Source: Arthrobacter crusticola (GTDB taxonomy: Bacteria; Actinomycetota; Actinomycetes; Actinomycetales; Micrococcaceae). From it: a stretch of DNA of 64,000 nucleotides. Below, piece after piece: positions 47,081 to 61,657 of the stretch (positions are counted from its first letter, which is position 1; every line of letters begins with the position of its first letter). The stretch lies in contig NZ_SMTK01000001.1 of the NCBI RefSeq assembly GCF_004357995.1, positions 372,001-436,000 of the forward strand. The letters are read 5' to 3'. Made by a program: the position numbers and the translations under genes. Below the pieces are notes generated by a model. The model was not told where the DNA came from, did no database searches, and saw only the letters and a list, made by a program, of their open reading frames with translations.

Positions 47081-47962
47081 ATGGCCAGCGACGGACTCCC
47101 GGCCGCGGTCGTGACCGACTCGGCGGCCGGGTTCCCGCCGGGCTGGCTCGACGGCCAGGGGCGCGCCGGGGGAGTCACGGTGGTTCCCCTGCCGGTCCTG
47201 ATCGCCGGTCAGATCTACAGCGACGGCGGCGACTCACTCGTCGAGCCCCTGACCATCGCGCTGGCGCAGGGCTCGGAGGTGCGCACGTCCCGGCCGTCGC
47301 CGGGCCAGTTCGAGCGCGCCTATCGGGCCCTCGAGGCCGAAGGCCATTCGGGCATCATCTCCATTCACCTCTCCGGGGCCCTGTCCGGCACGGTTGACGC
47401 AGCACGCCTGGCGGCCTCCTCGGTCGGCGTTCCCGTCGAGGTGATCGACAGCCGCACCGCCGGGATGCCGCTGGGCTACGCGGCCGTGGCCGCGCTGCAG
47501 TCCCTGCAGCAGGGGGCGAGCCTTGAGCGCAGCGCCGCCGCCGCGGCCATCGTCTGCCGCACCTCGGAGCTCTATTTCTACGTGCCGAGCCTTGACCAGC
47601 TGCGCCGCGGGGGACGGATCAGCGCCGCCGCGAGCTGGCTGGGCAATGTCCTCTCGGTGAAGGCGCTGCTGAGGATTCAGGACGGGCGCGTGGTCCCCGT
47701 GGAGAAGGTGCGCACGGCCGATCGGGCCCTTGACCGGCTCCTGGAAATCGTCCAGGGTGCCGCTGCGGCCCGGCCCGGTGGCAGCGAGATCACGGTGCAC
47801 CATTTCGGGAACGACGACGAGGCTGCCGGGTTCGCCGCCCGGCTGGAATCCTGCCTGCCAGGGACGCCCGTTTCCCTGGCCCGCTGTCCGTCGGTCCTGG
47901 CGGCGCATGCGGGCCTCGGAGTGATGGCCGTGGCCGTGGTTCCCCGCCCCTTGTCTTCATAG
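47081..47962 (+). CDS. DegV family fatty-acid-binding protein
   Basis: 293 residues with the two-domain DegV fold. TDSAAGFP marks the ligand-binding N-terminus, then TSRPSPGQFERAY, SIHLSGALSGTVDAAR and VIDSRTAGMPLGY, all family landmarks. DegV proteins bind free fatty acids; in firmicutes they are FakB and hand the fatty acid to the kinase FakA. No fakA is in the window. The last 85 bases of the gene region recur in degenerate form at 53660-53743. Confidence 0.9.
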   Translation: MASDGLPAAVVTDSAAGFPPGWLDGQGRAGGVTVVPLPVLIAGQIYSDGGDSLVEPLTIALAQGSEVRTSRPSPGQFERAYRALEAEGHSGIISIHLSGALSGTVDAARLAASSVGVPVEVIDSRTAGMPLGYAAVAALQSLQQGASLERSAAAAAIVCRTSELYFYVPSLDQLRRGGRISAAASWLGNVLSVKALLRIQDGRVVPVEKVRTADRALDRLLEIVQGAAAARPGGSEITVHHFGNDDEAAGFAARLESCLPGTPVSLARCPSVLAAHAGLGVMAVAVVPRPLSS

Positions 47963-47988
47963 CGCCAGCGCGGCCCCGTGTTCGGCCC
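47904..47988 (+). repeat. Left copy of the repeat flanking the degV-comEA insertion
   Basis: The intact degV 3' end (GLGVMAVAVVPRPLSS and stop) plus about 25 downstream bases including CGCCAGCGCGG. It matches 53660-53743 imperfectly. Confidence 0.7.
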
Positions 47989-48475
47989 AAGCACTCCCTT
48001 CCTCGGAGCTGGACTCGGCCGAGTCCCACTACCAGGTCGCGCTGATGGCACGAGAATTCAGTCTCAACAAAAGCTGATTGAGGAGCGACACCTCCTTGGA
48101 ACCTCGATCACAGAATCTGGAGCGTCTGAGATTGGCAGGCCATCACTTTCACATCCTGGATTTTGGATTTTGGGTCGATCTTCCGGGTGAAACTCACAAT
48201 GCGTCGGCTTTTGGTCATTGTTGGGGCCCGCTATCTCAGAAAATCTGCAGGCCTGCGCTATTCGAGTAGCCAAGCTTCTGAAAATCGTCCCGTGGCGGGG
48301 TTCGACTCGGAAGAGGCGACATGTGACAGCACTGGCCTAAGCTTTCCAAGGCGGGAATTAGATCTTCGGTGGCCTCTTGGATGCTCCGTGGTCTCTTCCG
48401 ACAAAAAGGGTTGTGCTGCGGACCTGTCTGGGTGTTGTGCACACATTTAGGACCGGAGGCCATAGACCCGACGAC
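47963..48475. other. Gene-poor left part of the inserted segment
   Basis: About 510 bases with lower GC than the flanks. It contains the second 18-bp repeat copy (48179-48196). A frame ending at 48076 reads ELDSAESHYQVALMAREF, which looks protein-like and may be the tail of a destroyed gene. No complete gene, tRNA or integrase is seen. Confidence 0.5.
48179..48196 (+). repeat. 18-bp dispersed repeat, copy 2
   Basis: TCTTCCGGGTGAAACTCA, identical to 34912-34929. It lies 283 bases left of the M48 protease stop, in AT-richer sequence. Confidence 0.6.
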
Positions 48476-50584
48476 CTAGATCGGTTTTCTGCCATGCACG
48501 CGTCGAGCGGCCACAGTGATGGCGTACCGGATCGTGACTACCACGCCGATGATTATTATTGAGACCGCAAGACCACGGGCCATGGCGGGTGACCACATCG
48601 ACGGAAGAACGCTCAACGGGGCTGAGTCCATGCTCGCCAACCAGAAAACAGCCACTCCAAGGGCGCAAAGGCCCAAGCTCAAAGGGCCGGCGATGAACAC
48701 CTTTGCAGGCCCGGTGACGGGGTCGACCAAACACAGAATTGTGCTCGGGGCCGCCCAGCAGCCCACTGTCGTCAATATCCACAGGAAATTAGCCTGGAAT
48801 GCAGCTTCGGCTGTAGTGGTGGAACCGATGAACAGAAGCTGCGAGACCAGAAAGACGCTCCCCGCAAGTCCTGCCGCCAAGCCCAAAAGCAACGGAAATC
48901 TGAGCGTGTCGCCCTTCGCAGGAAGCGCGGGGCTCGAGGACGTGGCCGCGGGTGAAGGGTTCGGGAAATACATCCAGTCCCGAGGGACGCGTCGACGTGC
49001 CCTTGGTCCCAGGAGCGAAGCGAGGAAGGCCACGACAGTCAGCAACACTGCCAAACCAATTCCTGGCACTTCGTCGTAGCCATACTGGATCCACAGGTAG
49101 GCCCCCGGCCACCCCGCTTCCGTCAGCGCTAAGTCCAGACTGTCCCCGATCCAGGTTGCCACCAGAAAGATTGTGACGTTGAGCAGTACGGCGGGAAGCC
49201 AAAAGTGCCATGGACGAGTCACGAAAAGCGCTAGGGGTAGGCAGAGTGCTCCGAACGCGGCACATAGGAAAACGGTGCCGAGCCCTGCAATCATTGGGGC
49301 AAGCAACGTCATAGGGTGGAAGGAGGCGGCGACGTCCTGACCGATCCCCGCCAACGAGACAAGTTGTCCAAGTGTTAGGCCCACCGACACACCTACTGCC
49401 GTTTTGAAGGCTTTGCGCATCGTCCGCGAGCCGGCACCATCCGTTCCATGAGCCAAAGAATCAGCGAACTGAGATCTCCAGACATCCAGACCGACCGTCA
49501 AGCCCAACAGCGACCCCGTCACCGCCGCTGAAGTCCAAATTCCACCTAGTATCAGACCCGTTCCGGACAGGAATGGTGTCGCACTGAAAACCACAAGTGG
49601 ACCCAGAACTCCAGCATGGAATCCCGCGGAAAGCGTTTGGAGTAGGCTGCTATCCGCTGCCAAGTGTGGCGACTCAAGGATAGCGAGCCGTTCGGACCGC
49701 ATCGGGTGACGCATGCGCAAGCCTTGAAGCCAGTTGCGAGAAGTGCCGGCGCTCAGCAGGCCAAGACTGGACCTGACGGCGTCGAGTGATGTTGGCTCCG
49801 CCGCAGCTCGAAGATCCGCGTCGTGCTCGCGTGACCTGAGCAGGGCGGCCGCTACGATCTCCACAACGACCGCAAGCAAGGCCGCTCGCCAAAGATAGTG
49901 GGGGAGGAGGGAAGGGCCTTCCCACAGGGCCCCCAGTACTGGGAACAGAAGGACCAGCAGCGCGACATACCAAGCGCTACGCGCCATCCAGGCCAGTTCG
50001 ACGTCCCGGTGCCGGATGTGCGCAAACTCGTGGAGCACTACCCCATCCGCTGGCCCTGGCCTTACCAACATGCCCACGACCTTCGGTGGAAGCGCCATGG
50101 CGGGGGAGCCGGGCCTTCCGAATGAAAAGGCATCACCCATCCTGGCGGGTCCGATGTACAGCCTCGGCATCCGGGGCAAACCTGCGAGCGAAGCCAACTG
50201 GGTGGACCGCTCCACCACCGCCCGATGCTTCGGCATCGGCAACTCAAGCGAACGACGGCGTTTGATCAAAGAGGGGAGAGCATACAGGACCGAGATGGCG
50301 AGCCCTGCCACCAGGACGGCGCCGGCAAATGACCACGAGCCGCGCCTGAATTCCACAGGTGCCATGCATATTTGGAACTGAACAACATCCACGGCTGAAC
50401 AGCTGTTAAGAGCCTGAACCCACTGTCTCCCCAAGAATAGATTGTGCATCCATGAACCCACGAATAGTCCAACGGCGAGGAGGGCGGCAATGAGGAGGAA
50501 GTACAACCCCGTGGTCGGTGCCGGAAATGCAAGGAGATTGACACGGCGAGCCGTGACCATTGATGCTGAAGGCTTCTTTTCCAC
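48476..50584 (-). CDS. Multi-pass M48-type zinc metalloprotease
   Basis: 702 residues. Two N-terminal membrane helices are followed by the protease core with the zinc site His185-Glu186-Phe-Ala-His189 (VLHEFAHIRH) and third ligand Glu253 in SREHDAD, as in M48 (HtpX/Ste24-like) enzymes. More than ten additional hydrophobic segments follow, far beyond the usual M48 length, making an integral membrane enzyme with a large C-terminal membrane domain (about 310-680). The GTG follows GAAGGGGTG. It lies 40 bases downstream of a small gene that is probably its partner. The substrate is unknown; the adjacent membrane-active-looking protein is a candidate. Confidence 0.8.
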   Translation of the reverse strand: MEKKPSASMVTARRVNLLAFPAPTTGLYFLLIAALLAVGLFVGSWMHNLFLGRQWVQALNSCSAVDVVQFQICMAPVEFRRGSWSFAGAVLVAGLAISVLYALPSLIKRRRSLELPMPKHRAVVERSTQLASLAGLPRMPRLYIGPARMGDAFSFGRPGSPAMALPPKVVGMLVRPGPADGVVLHEFAHIRHRDVELAWMARSAWYVALLVLLFPVLGALWEGPSLLPHYLWRAALLAVVVEIVAAALLRSREHDADLRAAAEPTSLDAVRSSLGLLSAGTSRNWLQGLRMRHPMRSERLAILESPHLAADSSLLQTLSAGFHAGVLGPLVVFSATPFLSGTGLILGGIWTSAAVTGSLLGLTVGLDVWRSQFADSLAHGTDGAGSRTMRKAFKTAVGVSVGLTLGQLVSLAGIGQDVAASFHPMTLLAPMIAGLGTVFLCAAFGALCLPLALFVTRPWHFWLPAVLLNVTIFLVATWIGDSLDLALTEAGWPGAYLWIQYGYDEVPGIGLAVLLTVVAFLASLLGPRARRRVPRDWMYFPNPSPAATSSSPALPAKGDTLRFPLLLGLAAGLAGSVFLVSQLLFIGSTTTAEAAFQANFLWILTTVGCWAAPSTILCLVDPVTGPAKVFIAGPLSLGLCALGVAVFWLASMDSAPLSVLPSMWSPAMARGLAVSIIIIGVVVTIRYAITVAARRVHGRKPI

Positions 50585-50624
50585 ACTTTCACCCCTTCAA
50601 TAGGGTTTCCAGGCTAAAGAAGAG

Positions 50625-51113
50625 CTATTTGCCAAGCACCCCAATGATGGCGCTGCCCAACAAGACAGCTTTGTCCTCGTCGAGCCCCAATCGGGTGGCC
50701 TGCTCCCTAGCAGCCGCAAAAATTTGAGCCCGTTGTTCCTTCGTAAGCTCCACACCATCAGGTGGAGAAGCCTGGTCGGTACCTACCCGCAACATTCTTT
50801 TCAGGGCCCCCGAGATCGCGGGGCTGGCCACATCTTTGGCCACGTCGCGCAGCAGGTCGCCGATCAGGTCAACGACAAATTCGGCCATTGCCAAGGCGAA
50901 GGGGGTCAAGAGAGCCAGTTCAAGGCCGAACCCTACTGCTTCATCCTTCTTATTAAGCATTAGGGTCGTTTGTGGATCCTCGTAGTATTCCTCGGCGACC
51001 TCGTCGAAAGTCAGCAACTCATCGGGGGCCGCACGATCAATGACGAGCCGAGCCAACTGCGTACTCAACTCGCGTAGTTCTTGGGTTTGCTGGTCCGTTC
51101 GTGGCTCTCCCAT
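50625..51113 (-). CDS. Hypothetical protein paired with the M48 protease
   Basis: 162 residues from the ATG at 51113, which follows AAGGGAG by six bases; the frame is open to 51152. The N-terminal half is charged and helical (TDQQTQELRELSTQLARLVIDRAAPDELLTF). The central part is hydrophobic or amphipathic (AVGFGLELALLTPFALAMAEFVVDLIGDLLRDVAKDV, about 75-112), and the C-terminus is helical again. I do not recognise the family. The central segment could insert into or lie on the membrane. Its gene leads the two-gene unit with the protease, and a TATAGA -10 (51152-51157, minus strand) lies upstream. Confidence 0.7.
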   Translation of the reverse strand: MGEPRTDQQTQELRELSTQLARLVIDRAAPDELLTFDEVAEEYYEDPQTTLMLNKKDEAVGFGLELALLTPFALAMAEFVVDLIGDLLRDVAKDVASPAISGALKRMLRVGTDQASPPDGVELTKEQRAQIFAAAREQATRLGLDEDKAVLLGSAIIGVLGK

Positions 51114-51812
51114 GGGTACTCCCTTGATGAGATTCAGCCAGCCTGTAGGCATCTATAACAAGAGCTATCCTCCCGCTAATAGGGAGTGACTACAAGTAAT
51201 TTGGGAGGCCCTCTGCACGCGCCGAGGAGCTGGGGCGGGCCAGGTATGCATGACTCGCAGCCTATCCTTTTGAACCGGTCATCGTTCTGTCTTGTCAGAC
51301 AATCTCCAGCGAGCTGTGGGCGGTCTGGGTAGCCTCGTCCATTACCCTGTTCCCCGAGACCCGCCGGTGGGCAGGGATGGGACCAGGACCCAGTTCTATT
51401 GGCATCCGTCCCTGGTGCGGGCTGTTCCCCTCTGCTCGCCTTTAAGAGCCACCGGCACCGACCGAGGTGGCGTTCGTTCATGGATTTACTCCCGCCACCA
51501 GGCGTTCAGATGGGAAACTTACCTAACGAGGTCTCGGACTGGTTCCAGGCAAAGGACGGCCGTCAGGTGGTGGGCGCGAGTTGATGAACACAAGCGCCTA
51601 ACGGTATCCGCGTCAGGGTATAAGCCAACCCGACTACGGATCGTGTATCCAGCTGCTCTTGTAGCGCCTACCTGGAGCCGAGCACCGTGCGAACGCAGGA
51701 GAGTAGCTAACAAGGGCCGCTTTGAGATTCGAGGCCAGGGAAATATGTAACTGGAAGAACCCCCTAAGTGAGGCGCTTACAGGGGTAAGGGGTCGTTCAA
51801 GGGGGAGCACTG
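51114..51812. other. Gene-free region inside the inserted segment
   Basis: About 700 bases between divergent genes. The left end carries the promoter of the protease unit. The plus-strand open frames (51292-51750, 51399-51584) lack ribosome sites and have arginine-rich, non-protein-like content, though the tail NEVSDWFQAKDGRQVV near 51520-51580 could be a gene remnant. Probably decayed DNA. Confidence 0.5.
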
Positions 51813-52001
51813 ATGGCAGCACATATGGAGTACATCCAGACGGACAACGGCAGGAACCTCACAGACCAGGTAAACCGGCTAATCCGCAGATTTGAGACTG
51901 GCCAAGTCAGCGTCCAAGTCGTCACTACTGTGGTGTCCGACCCGCGCACCCAGGGCGGAACCAAGCTCATCTACGAGGCTTACATTATTCATCCGGCCTA
52001 G
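51813..52001 (+). CDS. Small hypothetical protein (62 aa)
   Basis: ATG at 51813 preceded by AAGGGGGAG at good spacing. The sequence has an initial amphipathic helix (LTDQVNRLIRRFETG) and two predicted strands (VSVQVVTTVVSD, KLIYEAYIIHPA), giving a compact beta-alpha character without membrane segments. No family recognised. It overlaps the 3' end of the convergent membrane protein gene by 17 bases. Confidence 0.55.
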   Translation: MAAHMEYIQTDNGRNLTDQVNRLIRRFETGQVSVQVVTTVVSDPRTQGGTKLIYEAYIIHPA

Positions 52002-52674
52002 GGTAGTGAGCAATCTCTTCTAGATCCCCGTTGTGCCACCTCTTCCAGCGGGTACCGGCCGAGTCGGTAAAAGTCGCATACGCGCCATCGACCTTATCCG
52101 CTAGGTGGCGAAAGCTGTCAAAGGTGTGGGGCAGAATTGACTGGAAGTACTTCTGGCCGACCTCCCGGCGGGTCCTGTCGAGTACAACTGCGGCTATGCC
52201 GAAAACAGCGAGTTCTCCGTCATTGCGGACCTCGATTTGTACGCGGTCCGGAGGGTTTGTTCCTGGAGCCACATAAGCTGGCTTGAAAGGAACTATCCGG
52301 ACCGTCACAGCTTCCGCTTGCGCACGGCGCTTGGATTCCAATTCGGCGTGCCTGTCACGTACTTGCCGCTGGTACGTCAAGGCTGCAATCAGAAGCGCGC
52401 CGCCTGTCAGCGCCGCGCCGAGCGCTGTAGCCACAGCTCCCCAGAACGTCGAGATGGCACTTAGCCACTCCGCTGCATTTGCCTGTCCTGCCGTTGGACC
52501 TTGCAGCAGAGCTGATATGGAAGCTACGCCGGCGATAATGCCCAGCATGACGGCAACGCTGCCCAAGACAAGGGCCATGTTCTTCCACTTTAGAAAACGG
52601 CTCCAATGCCCTTTGAGAGTCTTCTGCAACGCCCTTAGCATGGACTCGGCGGGTGGCGTATCGGCTTCAGTCAT
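51985..52674 (-). CDS. Hypothetical two-helix membrane protein
   Basis: 229 residues. Two membrane helices (about 33-58 and 75-100) are separated by a short extracytoplasmic loop. A charged linker rich in Arg/Glu follows (YQRQVRDRHAELESKRR), then a cytoplasmic beta-rich domain from about 120 with a DRVQIEVRNDGELAVFGIAAVVLD segment. The start codon directly follows the stop of the upstream gene (TAGATG), so the pair is translationally coupled. Family unknown; it resembles small membrane proteins of accessory regions. Confidence 0.65.
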   Translation of the reverse strand: MTEADTPPAESMLRALQKTLKGHWSRFLKWKNMALVLGSVAVMLGIIAGVASISALLQGPTAGQANAAEWLSAISTFWGAVATALGAALTGGALLIAALTYQRQVRDRHAELESKRRAQAEAVTVRIVPFKPAYVAPGTNPPDRVQIEVRNDGELAVFGIAAVVLDRTRREVGQKYFQSILPHTFDSFRHLADKVDGAYATFTDSAGTRWKRWHNGDLEEIAHYPRPDE

Positions 52675-53145
52675 CTACCGGCTCGTGGACTTGAGGAAGA
52701 CATTCCAGCTCTTGTCATTTCCCTTGATTGAAGAGCAAGCGAACTGCATGGGGATGGTGTCGCCCTTGTCCGGGTTCGTGTATACGCCCGTGGTGTCGAA
52801 GCTGCCATCAGATTCCTTATACGTCGAGACTGTCTTAGCTGCTTTGACAACGGCCGTCGGGAGCTTCTGCTTTAGCCGCTGTTCGCAGACGTCGTTCGCA
52901 TCCTCGGCGTCCGTTTCCAACTGGTTGGCTACGGCTTGTTCGGCAGCCGCGGCAATCTCCGCCTTCTTCGAGGCCTCGGCGACGGCTGACGCTTCCGCAG
53001 CGGCCTCCTCGCTTGCCCGGATGGCCTGGGAGGACACGGCGATGGCGATGATGGCCAGGAGGACGACTATCACGGAGCCAGTGATGATGAGCAGCTTGTT
53101 GCGGTTGGCAGGCGGTTTCACTTCAGGCGTGGCTTCAGTAGACAT
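52675..53145 (-). CDS. Hypothetical membrane-anchored coiled-coil protein
   Basis: 156 residues. There is a short cytoplasmic tail and one membrane helix (about 18-40, KLLIITGSVIVVLLAIIAIAV). An alanine/glutamate coiled coil (about 45-80) follows, then a small extracytoplasmic domain with two cysteines (NDVCEQRLKQKL and MQFACSSIKGND) that could form a disulfide. The C-terminal domain resembles the small secreted domains found after such anchors in actinobacteria. Coupled to the downstream membrane protein gene. Function unknown. Confidence 0.65.
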   Translation of the reverse strand: MSTEATPEVKPPANRNKLLIITGSVIVVLLAIIAIAVSSQAIRASEEAAAEASAVAEASKKAEIAAAAEQAVANQLETDAEDANDVCEQRLKQKLPTAVVKAAKTVSTYKESDGSFDTTGVYTNPDKGDTIPMQFACSSIKGNDKSWNVFLKSTSR

Positions 53146-53766
53146 AGGTGCTTCTTTCGAGTGCTAGACGGGCTGAGTATGGGGGCCCAGTCAGCTTTCC
53201 CCCAGCAGCGCACCTTGCCCGTAGGTTATACGACCGCCACCAGAAGACGAAGTAGGGCACAAAAGACCACCCGGTGGAGATGGGCGATCAAACCAACGGG
53301 TGCCAATGATTTGTATTCACTTTAGCATGATAGGCCGTGATGGAATATGACTGTGCAAATTGCCAGTGCATAAATAGGCTATTTAGAGTCAAAATATGAA
53401 ACTATGACCACTCCTCGCCCGTGGCTCATAATACGTTCATAAGCAAGGCGATCAACAAGAACCGAACGAAGACGTTATACCAATTCACCCTCCTGGCGTC
53501 CTGCCCGCGGGCAGTTGCAGTCCGGGTGGGTGGTCACCGTTGCCCGGGTGGGCAGCACCGCGCCCCTCGCGCAGATGCCTCGGGTGCTGGGGACGTCTGG
53601 CGCCCGTGCTCGCGGCCGCGTTGTCCTCACTTGTCGTGGTGGGCGGTGGCTGCAGTGACGCGCCCTCGGGCCTTGGCGTAATGGCCGTGGCCGTCGTCCC
53701 CTGTCCGTTGTCCACATAACGCCAGCGCGGCGCTCGTCCGCCCGGGACCCCTGCCTATCGTGGCCT
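53146..53766. other. Right part of the inserted segment and degenerate degV end
   Basis: A distinctly AT-rich patch (about 53220-53480) gives way abruptly at about 53490 to GC-rich sequence containing the degenerate degV 3' copy (53660-53743) and then comEA. No gene is supported in this interval. Confidence 0.55.
53660..53743 (+). pseudogene. Degenerate second copy of the degV 3' end
   Basis: The frame ending with TAA at 53717-53719 reads GLGVMAVAVVPCPLST, against GLGVMAVAVVPRPLSS at the end of the intact degV. The match continues past both stops through CGCCAGCGCGG. The match fades upstream of about 53660. It sits directly before comEA, which normally follows degV, so it marks the right edge of the insertion. 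It is not expressed as a protein as far as can be seen. Confidence 0.7.
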
Positions 53767-54930
53767 ATGCCGAGACACCGCTGGGCCACCGCCGCTCCCT
53801 TCCTTCCCCTTCCGCCGCCCCCCGGTGGGGGTGGTAATGCAGTCGGTACCTTTCTGTCGAGCCGAGCGCGGCGCGCGGTCGCTTTCGGTGGAGATGGCAC
53901 CCCAGAGTCGGGGCCGGTGGCCGGCACCGTGGGGGAGGCGTCGGGCAGCGCGGCGGCCTCGGCCGCCCATAATCCCGCCGCTGTGGTCGATGTCGTCACC
54001 ACCGTGCCCGATGCTGCTGTCGGTGCTTCTGCCGGCCTGGGCGGCCCGCGCGGCCGCGGCAGCCCGGGCGACCTGGCCGAGGCCGACTTCGAGGCATCCC
54101 CGCCAACCCGCCGGTGGGCCGCGGCCCGTGGGGCGTCCTTGGTGTTTTTGGCCCTGGCGCTGACCTTGGGTGCCGGACTGTTTTTCGTCCGCAGCGAGTC
54201 TACGCCTCCGGTCGCCACCATCCCGCTCTCGGCCGAGGAGCAACGGTCAGGATCCGGGGTGGAGAGAGAGCGGGGTAGGCAGGCAGCTCCCGGCTCCGCA
54301 ACGGAATCGACCGCGCCGGGCTCGGAGCCGGCCGACGGGTCTGCGTCAGGGACCGCCGGATCGGAAGGTGATTCTGCCGGCGGCAGCGGGATTGAGATGC
54401 CCTTGGAAGGGGGTGACGCGGCTGCCGACCCGGGCGGCGTCTTCGTGCATTTGACAGGCGCGGTGGCGTCGCCGGGGGTGCGGGAGGTTCCGCAGGGTTC
54501 GAGACTGTTCCAGGTGCTTGAGCTAGCCGGAGGCGCAACACCGGACGCGGACCTTGCCAGAGTAAATCTGGCCGCCGTCGTGGTGGACGGAGGCCAGGTC
54601 CACGTGCCGAGGAAGGGTGAAGCGGTTCCGCTGGGGCCACCGGCCGGCTCTGGCGGTCCGCTCACGGGCGGCCGGACGCCGGGTGGTGGATCGAGTGGAG
54701 CGGGCACCGGGGGCACCGGTACCGGGATGCCCGCAGGGACGGTGAACCTCAACACCGCCGACGCACCTGCCCTGGAGTCGCTGCCCCGCGTGGGCCCGGT
54801 CCTCGCGGAGCGGATCATCGCGTGGCGGACCGAGCACGGCCCGTTCGCGCGGGCCGAGGATCTCGACGCGGTCCCGGGCATCGGGCCCGCCCTGCTCGAG
54901 GCGATGCTGCCCTTCGTGGTGGTGGGGTGA
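53767..54930 (+). CDS. comEA: ComEA-like DNA-binding protein
   Basis: 387 residues. A long low-complexity cytoplasmic part (1-120) is followed by one membrane helix (about 123-142), a second low-complexity linker, an SLBB domain (about 225-285, VFVHLTGAVASPGV) and a C-terminal double helix-hairpin-helix DNA-binding domain (about 320-387: NLNTADAPALESLPRVGPVLAERII, LDAVPGIGPALLEAM). It would bind incoming DNA outside the membrane for uptake with ComEC. The long N-terminal part is unusual, and the true start might be later. Confidence 0.85.
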   Translation: MPRHRWATAAPFLPLPPPPGGGGNAVGTFLSSRARRAVAFGGDGTPESGPVAGTVGEASGSAAASAAHNPAAVVDVVTTVPDAAVGASAGLGGPRGRGSPGDLAEADFEASPPTRRWAAARGASLVFLALALTLGAGLFFVRSESTPPVATIPLSAEEQRSGSGVERERGRQAAPGSATESTAPGSEPADGSASGTAGSEGDSAGGSGIEMPLEGGDAAADPGGVFVHLTGAVASPGVREVPQGSRLFQVLELAGGATPDADLARVNLAAVVVDGGQVHVPRKGEAVPLGPPAGSGGPLTGGRTPGGGSSGAGTGGTGTGMPAGTVNLNTADAPALESLPRVGPVLAERIIAWRTEHGPFARAEDLDAVPGIGPALLEAMLPFVVVG

Positions 54931-54936
54931 CGAAGC

Positions 54937-56571
54937 GTGCACTTCCGGTACCGCTGGCCTTCCCCGGCATCGACGCATCGACTCCGGACGGTTCCGCCTC
55001 TGAAACCCGACCTCCCGACCGACTTCCGCCTGGCCCCGGCCGCCGCCGCGGCATGGACGGCCGCAGCGCTGGCGACCGGGCTGCCCGCGGAGGAAGCCGC
55101 AGCCGGGGGAGCCCTGCTCGCCTGTGTCGGACTGATGCTCGGTCTGCTGTGCGTGGCGTACCGCGGGCGGGCCGCCGTGGCGCTGCTGGTCCCACTTCTC
55201 CTGCCGCTGGCCGCGGCGGGCCTGGCCATGCTGGCGGCCGCCGGAAGCCTTACGAGGTTCACTGGGGGTCCTGTCGACGAGGCTGCCCGTGCCAAGGCCT
55301 TCGCAACCGTCATCCTCCGCCCCTCCAGCGATGCCGTCCCCGTTCGGGGGGACTACGGGGAAGCGCGCTTCGTCCTGCGCGCCATCGTGACCGCGGGTTC
55401 CTCCTCCGGGCGCTCCTTCACGGCCGCATCCCCGGTCGTGGTGTTCGGGGACGGGCAGTGGAAGCAGATCGGCAGGGGCGATACGGTGCGGTCGGTGGGG
55501 AGGCTGCGCTCTCCGGACCAGCCCGGCAGGGAGGTGGCGGTGTTCCTTCCGGCCGCTCCACCCGTGGTGCAACCTGCCCGGGGCGCGGAGGACTACACGC
55601 GGCACCTCCGCCACAAATTCAGCAGCCGGGCCCTCGCCCGTGGAATGGGGGACGGTGGGCTGCTGCCAGGAATGGCAATCGGTGACCGCACGGTGCTCGA
55701 TGACCGGCTCGGGGAGGCAATGAAGGCCACCGGGCTAACCCACCTGACGGCGGTATCCGGCACGAACTGTTCCTACGTGCTGGCCTTTGCTTTCCTTGCT
55801 GCCCGCGCCGCCCGGCTGCCCCGGCCCGCCGCAGCCGGTGCTGCACTCGTCGCGCTGGGCGCCTTTGTCTTCCTCGTCCGTCCGGAACCGAGTGTGCTGC
55901 GCGCCGCGGTCATGGGAGCCATCGGGGTTCTCGCTGTCCTGACCGGCCGGGGCCGGATGTCCCTGCCGCTGCTGTTCCTGGCCGTGATCGTGCTCCTGGC
56001 GGCCGACCCGTGGTTGCACTCCTCCTATGCCTTCCTGCTGTCGGTGTCGGCCACAGCGGGGCTGATCCTCATCGGGCCGCTCCTTGCATCGCGTTTCGCG
56101 GCGGTCCTCCCGGTCTGGGTTGCCCGGCTGCTTGCGGTGCCGGTGGCGGTTCAGCTGGTCTGCACGCCGCTGCTCGTGATGCTGCAGCCGTCCCTGTCCG
56201 TCTATGCGGTGCCGGCCAATCTCGCCGCGGCGCCGGTGGTGCCGTTCGTGACGATCGCCGGAATGCTGGCGGTGGCCGCCCTGGCCGTATGGCCGCCGGC
56301 CGCGGAACCACTCCTGGCGGTCGGGCAGCTGGGCTCCGGGTGGGTGGCCACCGTGGCCAGGGTGGGAAGCGGCGCGCCCTTCGCGCAGGTGCCCTGGGTT
56401 CCGGGGGTGCCCGGCGCCCTCCTCGCTGCCGCGCTGTCTCTGCTGATCGTGCTCGGCGTCGCCGCCAGAGTGCACCCGAAGCGTGCATCCAGGCCGCCCC
56501 CGGTGGCCGTCCGGTACGGGCCGCCGCGCTGTGTCTGGTGGCCGGATGCTCCCTGGGGGCCGCCGGAGTGA
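54937..56571 (+). CDS. comEC: ComEC/Rec2 DNA-uptake channel, N-terminal part (frameshifted)
   Basis: 544 residues holding the N-terminal membrane helices, the OB-like domain (about 120-215) and the multi-helix competence domain (about 230-500) with the family motif LTHLTAVSGTNCSYVL. The last 30 residues (after VAARVHPKRAS) are out of frame. The beta-lactamase-like domain that should follow is encoded in the -1 frame from about 56503. One extra base in the C5 run at 56497-56501 would join them into one normal ComEC of about 821 residues. GTG start six bases after the comEA stop. Either a real disruption or a sequence error. Confidence 0.8.
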   Translation: MHFRYRWPSPASTHRLRTVPPLKPDLPTDFRLAPAAAAAWTAAALATGLPAEEAAAGGALLACVGLMLGLLCVAYRGRAAVALLVPLLLPLAAAGLAMLAAAGSLTRFTGGPVDEAARAKAFATVILRPSSDAVPVRGDYGEARFVLRAIVTAGSSSGRSFTAASPVVVFGDGQWKQIGRGDTVRSVGRLRSPDQPGREVAVFLPAAPPVVQPARGAEDYTRHLRHKFSSRALARGMGDGGLLPGMAIGDRTVLDDRLGEAMKATGLTHLTAVSGTNCSYVLAFAFLAARAARLPRPAAAGAALVALGAFVFLVRPEPSVLRAAVMGAIGVLAVLTGRGRMSLPLLFLAVIVLLAADPWLHSSYAFLLSVSATAGLILIGPLLASRFAAVLPVWVARLLAVPVAVQLVCTPLLVMLQPSLSVYAVPANLAAAPVVPFVTIAGMLAVAALAVWPPAAEPLLAVGQLGSGWVATVARVGSGAPFAQVPWVPGVPGALLAAALSLLIVLGVAARVHPKRASRPPPVAVRYGPPRCVWWPDAPWGPPE

Positions 56572-57401
56572 TCCTGCTCAGGCCACCTACGGGCGGTCCG
56601 GCGGGCTGGGTGGTGGCCGGATGTGACGTCGGGCAGGGCGACGCCTTCGTCATCAATACCGGGCCCGGGCGCGCTCTGGTCATCGATACGGGCCCCGATC
56701 CCGGCGCGATGGATGAATGCCTCTCTGACTTGGCGGTCACGGTGGTGGACCTGCTGGTGGTCACCCACCTCCACGAGGACCATTACGCGGGAGCAGCCGG
56801 TGTGTTCGAGGGACGGCAGGTGAAGGGGCTGGGCTATTCATCGGGTGAACCGACCCTGCCCCGTGAACTGGGTGCCCTCGCCCGTACCGCCGGGCTTGAA
56901 CCGGCGCGCATCGCCGCCGGAGATGTCGGCCGGGCCGGGGGAGTGAAGTGGGAAGCGCTGTGGCCGCCGCCGACCGGGGGTACCTCCGCCGGCGCGCCGG
57001 GCGGGACGGGGTACGGCAACGAGAATGACGCCAGCGCCGTGCTCCTCGTGGAGATCCCGGGTCCCGAGCGCCCCGCAACCGCGTTGTTCACCGGCGACAT
57101 TGAGCAGGAGGCCTCCCTGCGGCTGCTCTCCGGGCGCCCGGAGCTGGCCCGGGCCGGGGTGGACATCCTCAAGGTCCCGCACCACGGCGCCCGGAACGGC
57201 GGCACGGCGATCATCAAGGCGCTGCGCCCCGGCCTTGCCCTCATCTCGTCGGGGGAGGGCAACGACTACGGGCACCCGCACCCCCAGGTGGTGGCCGACC
57301 TGCGCCGGCAGTCCGTCTACGCGGCGCGCACCGACCGGCTCGGCACCTTCACCGTCGCCCTCGGAACGGCCGGCCTGGAGGTGAGGCCCATGGCCGACTG
57401 A
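56505..57401 (+). CDS. comEC: ComEC C-terminal metallo-beta-lactamase-like domain (second fragment)
   Basis: Continues ComEC in the shifted frame: one last membrane helix (VRAAALCLVAGCSLGAAGVILL) and the MBL-fold domain with ACDVGQGDAF-like CDVGQGDAFVINTG, THLHEDHYAG (zinc-site-like histidines), FTGDIEQEA and VPHHGARNGG. The frame is open upstream to 56010 but homologous only from about 56503. If translated alone it could start at the GTG at 56538. The 5' boundary given is the join, not a proven start. Confidence 0.75.
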   Translation, partial: GRPVRAAALCLVAGCSLGAAGVILLRPPTGGPAGWVVAGCDVGQGDAFVINTGPGRALVIDTGPDPGAMDECLSDLAVTVVDLLVVTHLHEDHYAGAAGVFEGRQVKGLGYSSGEPTLPRELGALARTAGLEPARIAAGDVGRAGGVKWEALWPPPTGGTSAGAPGGTGYGNENDASAVLLVEIPGPERPATALFTGDIEQEASLRLLSGRPELARAGVDILKVPHHGARNGGTAIIKALRPGLALISSGEGNDYGHPHPQVVADLRRQSVYAARTDRLGTFTVALGTAGLEVRPMAD

Positions 57402-57501
57402 GTAATCGACTGGCGGCCGGGGACGGCTTGGACAGCTTTGCCGGAGGTCGGCGGCATGGCACAGTGGGTCGGTACGCAGTTCGAGCAGGAATGAAGGTTT
57501 C

Positions 57502-58512
57502 GTGGCCACCAAGTCAAGCAGCAGCCGCCCCCCGGGGAAATCCCAAACGGTGTCCTGGCGGGAGGCGCGCCCTGCGCCCGTCGTCCTGCTCAGCGGGCCG
57601 GAGGACTACCTGGCCTCAAAAGCCTCCGAGCTGATCCGCACCCAGGTGCGCACCGCCCAGCCCGGTGCCGAACTCGTCACCCTCGATGCCGCCGCCTATG
57701 GTGCCGGCAGTCTGGGGCTGCAGTCCAGCCCGTCGCTGTTCGGGGACTGGAAGGTCATTGAGGTCGCCGGACTCGCCTCGATGAATGATGACTTCCTTCA
57801 GGATGCCCTCGCCTACCTGGCCGATCCGGCGCCGGACGTGGTGCTGGTGCTGCGGCACAGCGGCGGCAACCGCGGCAAGAAGCTCCTTGACGCCATTGCC
57901 GCGAGCGGCGGAGTCAGCGTCGACTGCCAGCCGCTGAAGAAGGACGCCGACAAGGCCGACTTCGTCTCGGCGGAGTTCCGGCTCGCCCGGCGCAGGATCG
58001 ATGGCGATGCCGTCCGTGCCCTGGTCGCAGCCGTTGGGTCGCAGCTCTCCGAACTCGCCGCGGCATGCCAGCAGCTGATTGCCGACACCGTCGGGGATGT
58101 CACATCGGAAGCGGTGGAGAAGTACTACGGAGGACGGGTCGAGGCGACAGGCTTCAAGGTCGCCGACGCCGCCCTCGCCGGGCGGACGGCGCAGGCCCTG
58201 TCGATGCTGCGCCATGCCCTGGCGACGGGGGCCGACCCCGTCCCGCTGGTGGCGGCCCTCGCCATGAAGGTCCGTGCCGTCGCGAAGGTCCACGGGGCGT
58301 CAGGCTCCTCCGCACAGCTGGCGCGGTCGCTGGGCATGGCCCCGTGGCAGGTCGACCAGGCGCGCAGGGAAGCCCAGCGGTTCTCCTCGGAGTCCCTGGC
58401 ACGGTGCGTGCGCGCCCTCGCCGACGCCGATGCCCAGGTCAAAGGCGGGTCGCGGGATCCGGTGTACGCGGTGGAACGCGCCGTCACCATCATCGCCCTC
58501 GGGGACCGCTGA
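57502..58512 (+). CDS. holA: DNA polymerase III delta subunit
   Basis: 336 residues. It opens the sliding clamp within the clamp loader. The fold is visible as an N-terminal nucleotide-binding-like domain (PVVLLSGPEDYLASKA, LFGDWKVIEVAGL, VVLVLRHSGGNRGKKLLD) without a functional Walker A, and a C-terminal helical collar with ALSMLRHALATGADPVPLVAALA and ACQQLIADT. Located after comEC, as in many actinobacteria. GTG start with AGGAATGAAGG upstream. Confidence 0.93.
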   Translation: MATKSSSSRPPGKSQTVSWREARPAPVVLLSGPEDYLASKASELIRTQVRTAQPGAELVTLDAAAYGAGSLGLQSSPSLFGDWKVIEVAGLASMNDDFLQDALAYLADPAPDVVLVLRHSGGNRGKKLLDAIAASGGVSVDCQPLKKDADKADFVSAEFRLARRRIDGDAVRALVAAVGSQLSELAAACQQLIADTVGDVTSEAVEKYYGGRVEATGFKVADAALAGRTAQALSMLRHALATGADPVPLVAALAMKVRAVAKVHGASGSSAQLARSLGMAPWQVDQARREAQRFSSESLARCVRALADADAQVKGGSRDPVYAVERAVTIIALGDR

Positions 58513-58670
58513 GCGCCGGAGACAGCCCGGCGCAGTCCGTCCGGTAGGACCCCGAAATCCCCCGGCGGCCGCTGTGCCGCGCCGTTATTCGCCGGGGCGG
58601 TGACTGAGCAGGACCCGTGGTGGGCCGGACTCCTAGCGGGTCCGACTCTCAGTGGTCAGGGCCGTTAACG

Positions 58671-58704
58671 ACCTGTGGCCGGTCCCGAGGGACCGGCCAC
58701 AGGT
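58671..58704. terminator. Bidirectional terminator between holA and rpsT
   Basis: ACCTGTGGCCGGTCC and GGACCGGCCACAGGT form a perfect 15-bp stem with a four-base loop between two convergent genes, 20 bases from the rpsT stop. No T tract on either strand, but very stable. Confidence 0.75.
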
Positions 58705-58723
58705 GTAAAAACCTGGGGAACGC

Positions 58724-58984
58724 TTAGAGCGCGTTGACCTTCTTGGAGATGGCCGACTTGCGGTTCGCTGCGTTGTTCTTGTGCAGCACACCCTTGCTGA
58801 CAGCCTTGTCGAGCTTGCGGCTGGCAGTCTGCAGTGCGGCCGCGGCGGCGTCCTTGTCAGAGGAATCCAGGGCGGTGGTTACCGCACGGATCGCCGTCTT
58901 GAGCTCGGACTTCACCGAGTTGTTGCGCTGCCTCGCCTTTTCGCTGGTGAGGATGCGCTTCTTCTGGGACTTGATATTTGCCAC
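58724..58984 (-). CDS. rpsT: 30S ribosomal protein S20
   Basis: 86 residues from the GTG at 58984 ([22 protein letters not shown]), which is the usual S20 length and start; the frame runs further upstream to 59107 but that part is not conserved. The protein is lysine-rich and helical, binding 16S rRNA. It is convergent to holA and lies in the usual place near lepA. Confidence 0.95.
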
Positions 58985-59169
58985 GTATGAGAACTTTCTT
59001 TGTATTGCGGACTGGTCGTGAGGGAATTTCGGTCCAACCATGAACTGAGCGGCGTGGGGATACCGTGTGGCGATTGGTCCAAAGTGCCCGTCGACCTGCG
59101 CGGACACACAGCTAGCTATCTTAGCAGAGTTCGACCGGTCCTGCGGTGGGCGCGGCCCGGCGGGCCGCG

Positions 59170-59661
59170 TCAGGTGCGCGGGATGCTCCCGACGACGGCG
59201 TCGAAAGCGGCCCTCGGCAGTACGGCGCCGTTGCGCCGGATGGCCGCCGGCTCAATGCGGAGGATCCGGTCCACCCGCACCTCGCTCGGGCGGCGCTTCG
59301 GATCCCAGGGTCCGGTGCCGATGTCCACGTACCGTGCGTCGGCGGAGCGCGCGTTGTTGCGGTCCCGCGAGGTCAGGGCCAGGCCCAGAAGGTGCCGTCT
59401 GTCCCGCCCGATCAGGAGGACGGGACGGTCCTTGCCCTGGCTCGGGTCCTCCTCGTAGGGCACCCAGGTCCAGACAATCTCGCCCGGGTCGGGTCGGCCA
59501 TCAGGCCGCGGCGAGTACGTGAAGCGACCCCGGGCAGGAATCCGCCGCGTGGACACGGGGCCGCGCGCGCCCGCCGGCGTCGTCGTGGGGGAGGACGCAC
59601 GCCGCAGCAGGCGCGCTGCCGCCCGGGACCATCGGAGCAGTGCGAAAGCATCGATTCCCAT
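59170..59661 (-). CDS. PemK/MazF-like protein without a partner antitoxin
   Basis: 163 residues with a basic N-terminal extension of about 55 residues and then a PemK/MazF fold: [32 protein letters not shown], where the GEIVW and KDRPVL motifs are characteristic. No antitoxin-like gene is adjacent. Orphan relatives of this kind beside lepA are common in actinobacteria, and their nuclease activity is uncertain. The extended N-terminus is unusual for a free toxin. Confidence 0.75.
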
Positions 59662-59803
59662 GGATCCACAGTAGCGGGGCCCGCCGGTTGCCCCGGGTGC
59701 CGCGTTCGGCCGGTAAGGACAGGGCGTGGGACACTAGTAGGGCAACGGATACCCGACGACGATCGGTCCCTTGTCAACCGTCCCGCAAGAGTGAGGAACC
59801 CAC

Positions 59804-61657
59804 GTGTCACCCATGGCCCGCACCGCTCCGGTGCCCGCCGCCACTGATCCGGCGATCATTCGGAACTTCTGCATCATCGCTCATATCGATCATGGGAAGT
59901 CCACGCTGGCGGACAGGATGCTCCAGCTCACCGGCGCGGTGGAGCAGCGTGACATGAAGGCCCAGTACCTGGACCGGATGGACATCGAGCGTGAGCGTGG
60001 CATCACGATCAAGTCCCAGGCCGTTCGGCTCCCGTGGGAGGTCGACGGCACCGCCTACGCCCTGAACATGATCGACACGCCCGGGCACGTCGACTTCACC
60101 TATGAGGTCTCCCGCTCACTGGCGGCCTGCGAGGGCGCGATCCTACTCGTCGACGCGGCGCAGGGCATCGAGGCGCAGACGCTCGCGAACCTGTACCTCG
60201 CGATCGAAAACAACCTTACGATCATTCCCGTACTGAACAAGATCGATCTGCCGGCTGCGCAGCCGGAGAAGTACGCGGCGGAACTGGCGAGCCTCATCGG
60301 CGGGGAGCCCGAGGACGTGCTGATGGTGTCCGGGAAGACCGGCGTCGGCGTCGAGGCCCTGATGGACAAGATCGTGCGCGACCTCCCGGCGCCGACCGGG
60401 GACCCCAACGCACCGGCCCGTGCCATGATCTTCGATTCGGTGTACGACACCTACCGCGGCGTCGTGACCTACGTGCGGGTGGTTGACGGGAAGCTCAGCC
60501 CCCGCGAACGCATCCAGATGATGTCGACCAGAGCGAGCCACGAGCTCCTCGAGATCGGGGTCAGCTCCCCGGAGCCCAAGCCGTCCAAGGGACTCGGCGT
60601 GGGCGAGGTCGGCTACCTGATCACCGGTGTGAAGGATGTCCGCCAGTCCAAGGTGGGCGACACCGTCACCAACCTCGCGAAGCCTGCGGCGGAGTCGCTG
60701 GGCGGCTACCAGGACCCGAAGCCGATGGTCTTCTCCGGTCTCTACCCGCTCGACGGCACTGACTATCCGGTGCTTCGTGACGCCCTCGCGAAGTTCACCC
60801 TCAACGACGCCGCCCTAGTCTACGAGCCCGAGACGTCCGCGGCGCTGGGCTTCGGATTCCGCGTCGGCTTCCTCGGCCTGCTGCACCTTGAGATCACGCG
60901 CGAGCGCCTCGAGCGTGAGTACAACCTCGATCTGATCTCCACGGCGCCCAACGTCGAGTACGAGGTCACCCTCGAGGACAAGCGCGTCCTGAAGGTCACC
61001 AACCCCAGCGAGTACCCGGCGGGCAAGATCTCCGAGGTGCGCGAGCCCATGGTGTCGGCGACCATCCTGGCGCCGTCGGAATTCATCGGCGCCATCATGG
61101 AGCTGTGCCAGCAGCGGCGCGGCGTGCTCGGTGGAATGGACTACCTGTCGGAGGACCGCGTCGAGATCCGGTACCGGCTGCCCCTGGCCGAGATCGTCTT
61201 CGACTTCTTCGACCTGCTGAAGTCCAAGACGCGCGGCTATGGGTCGCTCGACTGGAAGGCCGACGGCGACCAGGTGTCGGACCTCGTGAAGGTCGACATC
61301 CTCCTGCAGGGCGAGCAGGTCGATGCCTTCAGCGCCATCACCCACCGCGACAAGGCGTACGCCTATGGCGTCATGATGACGGGCAAGCTGCGCGAGCTCA
61401 TTCCGCGCCAGCAGTTCGAGGTGCCCATCCAGGCAGCCATCGGATCGCGCATCATCGCCCGGGAAAGCATCCGGGCCATCCGCAAGGACGTCCTGGCCAA
61501 GTGCTACGGCGGCGACATCACCCGAAAGCGCAAGCTTCTCGAAAAGCAGAAGGAGGGCAAGAAGCGCATGAAGATGGTCGGACGGGTCGAAGTACCCCAG
61601 GAGGCCTTCATCGCGGCCCTGTCCTCCGATGAGTCGAAGGACAAAGCCAAGAAGTGA
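59804..61657 (+). CDS. lepA: Elongation factor 4 (LepA)
   Basis: 617 residues from the GTG at 59804 (an ATG at 59813 is also possible). Translational GTPase with G1 AHIDHGKST (26-34), the G2 loop [11 protein letters not shown]3 DTPGHVDF and G4 NKID. The GTPase is followed by domain II, EF-G-like domains and the LepA-specific C-terminal domain ([16 protein letters not shown] through [22 protein letters not shown]). It back-translocates or assists stalled ribosomes. Confidence 0.97.

Follow-up and report, generated by a model that had tools for sequence, protein, structure and literature searches.

A composite island between degV and comEA in Arthrobacter crusticola, with a segment related to elements that insert in comEA

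Genomic islands with direct repeats at the 3' end of a gene form a general class. The subject of this work is an island of about 5.7 kb that separates the genes degV and comEA in a 64,000-nucleotide (nt) stretch of the Arthrobacter crusticola genome (NCBI RefSeq assembly GCF_004357995.1, contig NZ_SMTK01000001.1, positions 372,001 to 436,000), called the window below and numbered from its first letter. Competence genes are known targets of integrated elements, which have been described in comK, comYC, comFA and comM (PMC4774983), in comYC, ssbB and, by transposons, comEC (PMC12637031), and in comGC (PMC6008420). An unspecified insertion in comEA was noted in a member of the Streptococcus anginosus group ("SC", read here as Streptococcus constellatus) (PMC3897883), and no report of a prophage in comEA was seen in a partial survey of the literature on competence-gene insertions. 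The removal of integrated elements by transformation, named "chromosomal curing", is a discussed process (PMC12637031), and for Acinetobacter, recombination was considered as a way in which comM could be salvaged (PMC11472951).

We consider it somewhat probable (roughly 55%) that the island is a composite scar, in which the remnant of a comEA-targeting prophage lies within an older, widened spacer. The cargo is composite, with a cassette related across genera and a segment (51800-53507) related to prophage, and related elements have inserted into comEA in the genomes G402 and G006 (genomes are designated by G, contigs and loci by L). The features on which this reading turns are as follows.

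47081 to 47962, plus strand: degV, intact, with its last codons within the left repeat copy (Pfam DegV, E 2.7e-69)
47903 to 47974, plus strand: left copy of the doubled junction, the degV 3' end, with TTGTCTTCATAG at the box position (repeat finder)
47975 to 48045, no strand: left strip rich in guanine and cytosine (GC), between the left copy and the lower-GC island, its similarity to the comEA leader weak and inconsistent
51800 to 53507, no strand: prophage-derived segment, given as the outer limits of non-continuous nucleotide matches to the IMG/VR contig L135, G402 and G006
51813 to 52001, plus strand: o62, small protein of the prophage module, with homologues in G006, G397, G402 and L135
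51985 to 52674, minus strand: o229, membrane protein, present in 2 of 38 genus genomes (window counted) and 32-33% identical in G402 and L135
52675 to 53145, minus strand: o156, membrane-anchored protein of the prophage module, with amino acid (aa) identity of 68% in L135 and 63% in G402
53508 to 53659, no strand: right GC-rich strip, a possible decayed degV fragment, unconfirmed (local alignment against shuffles)
53660 to 53731, plus strand: right junction copy, made up of a degV tail and the comEA leader box (repeat finder, own-genome search, degV profile)
53767 to 54930, plus strand: comEA, intact (Pfam HHH_3 and SLBB), with the codon ~350 site (about 54817-54825) unoccupied

In G402, comEA is split, and its residues 236-353 and 348-386 are encoded about 45.8 kb apart. 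Eight of the nine scanned proteins of the G402 element matched PHROGs, including terminase, portal, major head protein, head protease, tail protein and endolysin, and at the right junction lies a gene of a resolvase-type (serine) recombinase that is broken by an in-frame stop. The comEA gene of G006 breaks at the same position (codon ~350), with the right side deleted into comEC and no trace of the integrase of the related elements; several reading frames of G006 resemble those of G402 by eye. The left junctions of both genomes are GACTGGACGAT. As the junction pattern was built from G006 and G402, their matches (2 of 395 family genomes) are by construction; with up to three mismatches no further match was obtained in the 395 genomes, and the reversed control matched once (G276). 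The IMG/VR contig (L135; IMG/VR 2690315906) carries the same module, and its integrase shares 90% identity with that of G402 over 459 aa. The comEA gene was not found in this record, and comEA is its suggested target, as judged from the integrase identity. The GC content of the G402 element (0.572) and of the G006 element (0.569) can be set beside that of the window island (0.580). The two genomes with an element inside comEA at the same helix-hairpin-helix codon represent two genera (G402, locus L132 at ~1780 and L137 at ~11660; G006, locus L038 at ~3310).

The small protein o62 is 63% identical to its homologue in G006, 62% in G397, 53% in G402 and 52% in L135. Confident homologues (E below 1e-15) were found in only four of the 395 family genomes, namely the window, G006, G402 and G397, and three of these four loci (window, G006 and G402) lie at degV-comEA-comEC in one orientation; in G397, o62 and o156 occupy another location in the genome, not the com locus. 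The window, G006 and G402 share the arrangement of o62 and o229, in order and in strand, relative to degV. The module order and orientation o62-o229-o156 is found in the window, and o156 comes next in both the window and G402; it was not detected in G006. Strong o156 matches were obtained in 3 of the 395 genomes, and 8 at E<=1e-3. Weak o62 matches (G077, G237, G273, G414 and the viral contig L134) and the five weak o156 genomes were dropped. Searches of plasmids with o229, of phages with o62, and of phages and plasmids with o156 were all empty. Neither phage structural genes nor a serine integrase were found in the island, and matches to the prophage family occur only within 51800-53507; the window is therefore treated as carrying a remnant and not as a member of the comEA-targeting family. 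The o229 protein shows a sub-threshold likeness to SLATT or two-transmembrane (2TM) effectors, so the prophage module might be defence or exclusion cargo.

The stop codon of degV lies at 47962, and a second degV tail occupies 53672-53719, directly ahead of comEA. The second tail reads LGVMAVAVVPCPLST versus LGVMAVAVVPRPLSS, each up to the stop, and CGCCAGCGCGG after the stop is common to both copies. The repeat finder returned one direct-repeat pair of 72 nt, 81% identical and spaced by 5757 nt. The search of the own genome with 47081-48300 (threshold E<=0.001; 40 of 147 first-look candidates scored) gave two matches, degV itself and the copy by comEA (E 8.1e-12), and nhmmer with a three-species degV profile on 47963-60000 matched the right copy (E 2.7e-7). 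In pairwise comparison, the junctions of the window match over 65 nt (83%, E 4e-17), and the right copy joins about 16 degV codons to the comEA leader. The two tails differ at 11 sites, distributed 2/0/9 over codon positions 1/2/3, a pattern by which both tails seem to have been coding during their divergence; a foreign degV 3' end would look the same. The original prediction, made from the letters of this DNA, had placed a second degV 3' end before comEA, and this was borne out.

The GC content is 0.580 in the island (48046-53507), 0.711 at 47963-48045, 0.739 at 53508-53664 and 0.686 in the whole window. Lower-GC foreign DNA that relatives do not share had also been expected here, in agreement with these values and with the rarity of o156, o175 and o229. 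The absence of an integrase was likewise confirmed: none of the listed PF00589 and PF00239 matches of this genome falls in the stretch (none at C1:419-426 kb), and the integrase of the related prophage had no tblastn match in the window. As neither an integrase nor a near-identical pair of attachment (att) sites was found, the island is not mobile at present. A search for a comEA remnant behind the left copy gave nothing convincing, the score being reached by 14, 74, 272 and 6 of 500 shuffles for the leaders plus comEA of the window, G012, G013 and G030, respectively. Homology to degV at 53508-53620, in frame by eye, was reached by 0/300 and 0/500 shuffles against the degV of G012, and by 7, 29 and 71 of 500 against that of G013, G030 and the window itself; this fragment is unconfirmed, and the three-species degV profile missed the degV-like strip ahead of the right copy.

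The comparison covered 35 of the 38 genus genomes, and the start of comEA was found by pattern in 33 of these and in none of the other two. The distance from the degV stop to the comEA ATG is 46-199 nt in 29 of the 33, which agrees with the predicted adjacency of the two genes in relatives, and wide gaps occur only in G030 (951 nt), G013 (977 nt), G012 (2301 nt) and the window (5804 nt). The prevalence of narrow gaps indicates that the wide gap is derived. The gap is short in these 29 genomes, but none of the three nearest relatives has an empty site. By degV, the nearest relatives are G012 (97% aa identity), G013 (96%) and G030 (63%); among named genomes, the degV search gave Arthrobacter sp. 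MSA 4-2 (97%), an uncultured Arthrobacter metagenome-assembled genome (96%) and Arthrobacter sp. Br18 (64%).

A search for the same flanks around other cargo had been suggested as a check. It gives one clear case, G012, where a doubled junction (35 nt, 83%, E 7e-8) surrounds different cargo of normal GC content (0.676) with one long reading frame; the junction pair of G013 (29 nt, 72%, E 0.06) is not significant alone. The G013 spacer contains parts of the G012 spacer sequence, with pieces deleted, and other DNA. In all three genomes (window, G012, G013) the box is retained ahead of comEA and altered at the degV end, and an alignment of 89 nt (81%) links the degV end of G012 to the right copy in the window. 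No integrase was evident among the spacer reading frames of G012 and G013, the frames not having been scanned against families. The tblastx matches of the G012, G013 and G030 spacers to stretches of G008 and G006 were scattered high-GC noise and were dropped.

The box that distinguishes the right copy belongs to the leader of comEA, in which two features were delimited.

53708 to 53719, plus strand: comEA leader box TTGTCCACATAA, DnaA-box-like, with CACAT at a fixed distance across the genus
53756 to 53761, plus strand: -10-like TATCGT, 5 nt ahead of the comEA ATG, a probable -10 element of a putatively leaderless transcript

CACAT stands 53-55 nt upstream of the comEA ATG in 32 of the 33 genus genomes. 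Of the 33, 22 have the full box [AT]TRTCCACATA[GA] and the others have variants of it, and all have TANSST within the last 20 nt before the ATG. The box core TTRTCCACA has a single occurrence in the window. The 3' half of the right copy is thus the genus-wide leader element of comEA, and for this reason att sites of a single insertion are not the best reading of the copies. That the right copy might be a conserved comEA leader had been named as a point that would speak against the original prediction; it holds for the 3' half. The claim that the copies are the ends of a single 5.7-kb insertion was not upheld, as GC-rich strips intervene and the island consists of two unrelated pieces. The DnaA box TTGTCCACA is known in M. 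tuberculosis and S. coelicolor (PMC4285127). The comEA leader box includes TTGTCCACA, and differs in being usually followed by TAG and in having A as its first base in many genomes. It may be a candidate operator of the competence operon, and the binding of DnaA to this DnaA-box-like sequence is putative.

In G008 and G026, the degV stop codon sits inside the box, an arrangement that may show how the ancestor of the window group looked. Both genomes are imperfect examples, and the G026 contig ends at the locus. In G008 (L050, L088, L138, L139), degV and the comEA leader are present, and comEA, comEC and holA were not found in ~72 kb downstream; about 0.5 kb past degV stands a sequence that is found beyond holA in G027 and G011, which points to a deletion or an assembly fault. 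Motifs TCCACATAG are also found past degV in Arthrobacter sp. YD4 (L119) and in two records of Sinomonas atrocyanea (L122, L126), and in none of eight other named records inspected. Downstream in the window, a one-base difference shifts the frame of comEC at ~56515-56525, which G012 and G013 read through; it is either a real loss or a sequencing error.

The other piece of the cargo is a cassette of two genes.

48507 to 51197, minus strand: horizontally acquired o175-M48 cassette, given as the extent of the match to G396 (79% nucleotide identity over 2695 nt)
48476 to 50584, minus strand: M48/HtpX-like membrane metalloprotease of 702 aa (Pfam PF01435; HEFAH at residue 185)
50625 to 51152, minus strand: o175, partner gene ahead of M48, found in 4 of 395 family genomes

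The assignment to M48 is based on PF01435 (23.7 bits versus a cut-off of 20.3) and on the HEXXH motif, present as HEFAH; the NCBIfam HtpX models score far under their cut-offs. The cargo had been described as membrane or unknown genes, which is correct for the others and not for this metalloprotease. At E<=1e-3, o175 occurs in the four genomes with the window counted, and stands directly ahead of the M48 gene in all of them. The match partner G396 belongs to another genus, and degV and comEA were not found in the 15 kb examined at its cassette match. The search of the plasmid collection with o175 gave two records. The order o175 then M48 metalloprotease is also seen in a Caballeronia plasmid, so that outside the window the pair recurs at the loci L153, L158, L159 and L160 of the three other family genomes and this plasmid. 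The reading frame that follows o175 in a plasmid of Streptomyces (L152) begins M48-like by eye, with no M48 match. Searches of plasmids with the M48 query and of viral contigs with o175 were both empty, the o175-M48 pair had no PADLOC match, and no confident family was assigned to o62, o156 or o175 by PHROGs, NCBIfam and PADLOC, which showed for o229 just the sub-threshold likeness given above.

The composite scar could have arisen in four stages, the order of which is proposed from the anatomy of the locus. In the first, the junction of the degV end and the comEA box would have been doubled in an ancestor common to G012 and probably G013, the left copy keeping the degV end and losing the box, and the right copy keeping the box while its degV tail decays. 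The simplest account is one old doubling followed by a division of labour, in which the left copy ends degV and the right one promotes comEA. In the second stage, the doubling would open a spacer between the nearly abutting genes, in which DNA accumulates, and in the third the spacer of the window would gain the two unrelated pieces, the o175-M48 cassette and the 1.7-kb prophage remnant. In the fourth stage, most likely, an element of this kind had once resided in comEA of the lineage or of its DNA donor, which would account for a remnant beside this gene; comEA would later have been restored and the fragment left upstream.

Several observations weigh against this sequence of events. The prophage segment is not at codon ~350 of comEA, which is intact in the window; no convincing comEA fragment was found to the left of the segment, and the island holds no further gene of the related elements beyond 51800-53507. 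Identity at fourfold sites of comEA is 0.695 between G012 and the window and 0.798 between G012 and G013, so that comEA of the window has diverged further than expected; for leuS, degV and comEC the synonymous identity is near proportion, and these values give no clear sign of a replacement of comEA. The junction pair of G013 is weak, as given above, and the next relative, G030, has its wide gap with no doubled junction, which shows that a widened gap needs no doubling. There are no convincing element genes in the spacers of G012, G013 and G030, and the first and fourth stages are thus possibly unlinked. With the rest of the prophage missing, no comEA remnant and the undoubled gap of G030, our confidence in the composite scar is only moderate.

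The doubled junction around differing cargo in the window and G012, and weakly in G013, would also suit a site-specific integration hotspot, in which an integrase targets the degV 3' end or the comEA leader, the copies are attL and attR, and relatives carry other elements. The layout resembles integration that restores a gene end, and third codon positions account for 9 of the 11 differences that separate the copies. However, no integrase was seen in the window island or was evident in the unscanned frames of the G012 and G013 spacers, the copies are just 81% identical and of unequal length between species, GC-rich strips part the lower-GC island from both copies, and the related elements integrate elsewhere, within comEA; we regard such a hotspot as unlikely. 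It is similarly doubtful that the neighbourhood is due to chance, the old gap widening being a neutral spacer on which a prophage piece landed independently of the integration site of its family. Unrelated DNA is indeed also present in the spacer (o175-M48 in the window, other sequence in G012), the o62 copy of G397 is located elsewhere in its genome, and G030 shows that a gap may be wide with no doubled junction. Against this stand the three of four confident o62 loci at degV-comEA-comEC in a single orientation, and a random landing within ~10 kb in a 3.67-Mb genome has a chance of ~0.3% (post hoc arithmetic).

A tentative variant of the composite scar, to which we give a low probability, is that the locus is a footprint of curing: donor DNA with a degV tail, the leader and an intact comEA would have displaced a comEA-disrupting prophage, restored comEA and trapped a fragment. 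The fragment would then lie between the old and the incoming degV ends, and the doubled tail, with 9 of 11 differences at third positions, could, with as little probability, be the seam. That the 5.7 kb is ancestral core, native here and lost in other genomes, is highly improbable; this had been named as a further objection, nothing was found in its favour, and it is contradicted by the gap sizes across the genus, by the differing GC content of the island and by the rarity of o156 (strong in 3/395, 8 at E<=1e-3) and o175 (4/395) in the family and of o229 in the genus (2/38).

With G402 and G006, comEA in Actinobacteria can be counted among the competence genes that prophage-type elements enter, a serine recombinase gene lying at one of the junctions, and the window locus may show the aftermath of such an entry in a lineage with intact comEA. 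The DnaA-box-like element at a fixed position before comEA throughout the genus offers a concrete candidate site for competence control. Like the elements described in comYC, comFA and comM (PMC4774983), those of G402 and G006 lie inside a competence gene, at an orthologous codon in two genera; they differ in the target, comEA, and in the serine-type recombinase at the G402 junction, and in the window comEA is intact and the fragment lies upstream. The streptococcal case (PMC3897883) is similar in that comEA is truncated by an insertion, the nature of which is unstated in that source and which is not shown there as a prophage. Relative to islands flanked by repeats at gene 3' ends, the window likewise has a gene end in two copies with foreign DNA in between, whereas it has no integrase, its repeats are diverged, and a promoter element makes up half of the right one. 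As in chromosomal curing (PMC12637031), an intact target gene stands in the window beside a remnant of the element family that targets comEA; the difference is that in the window such a process is suggested by anatomy only.

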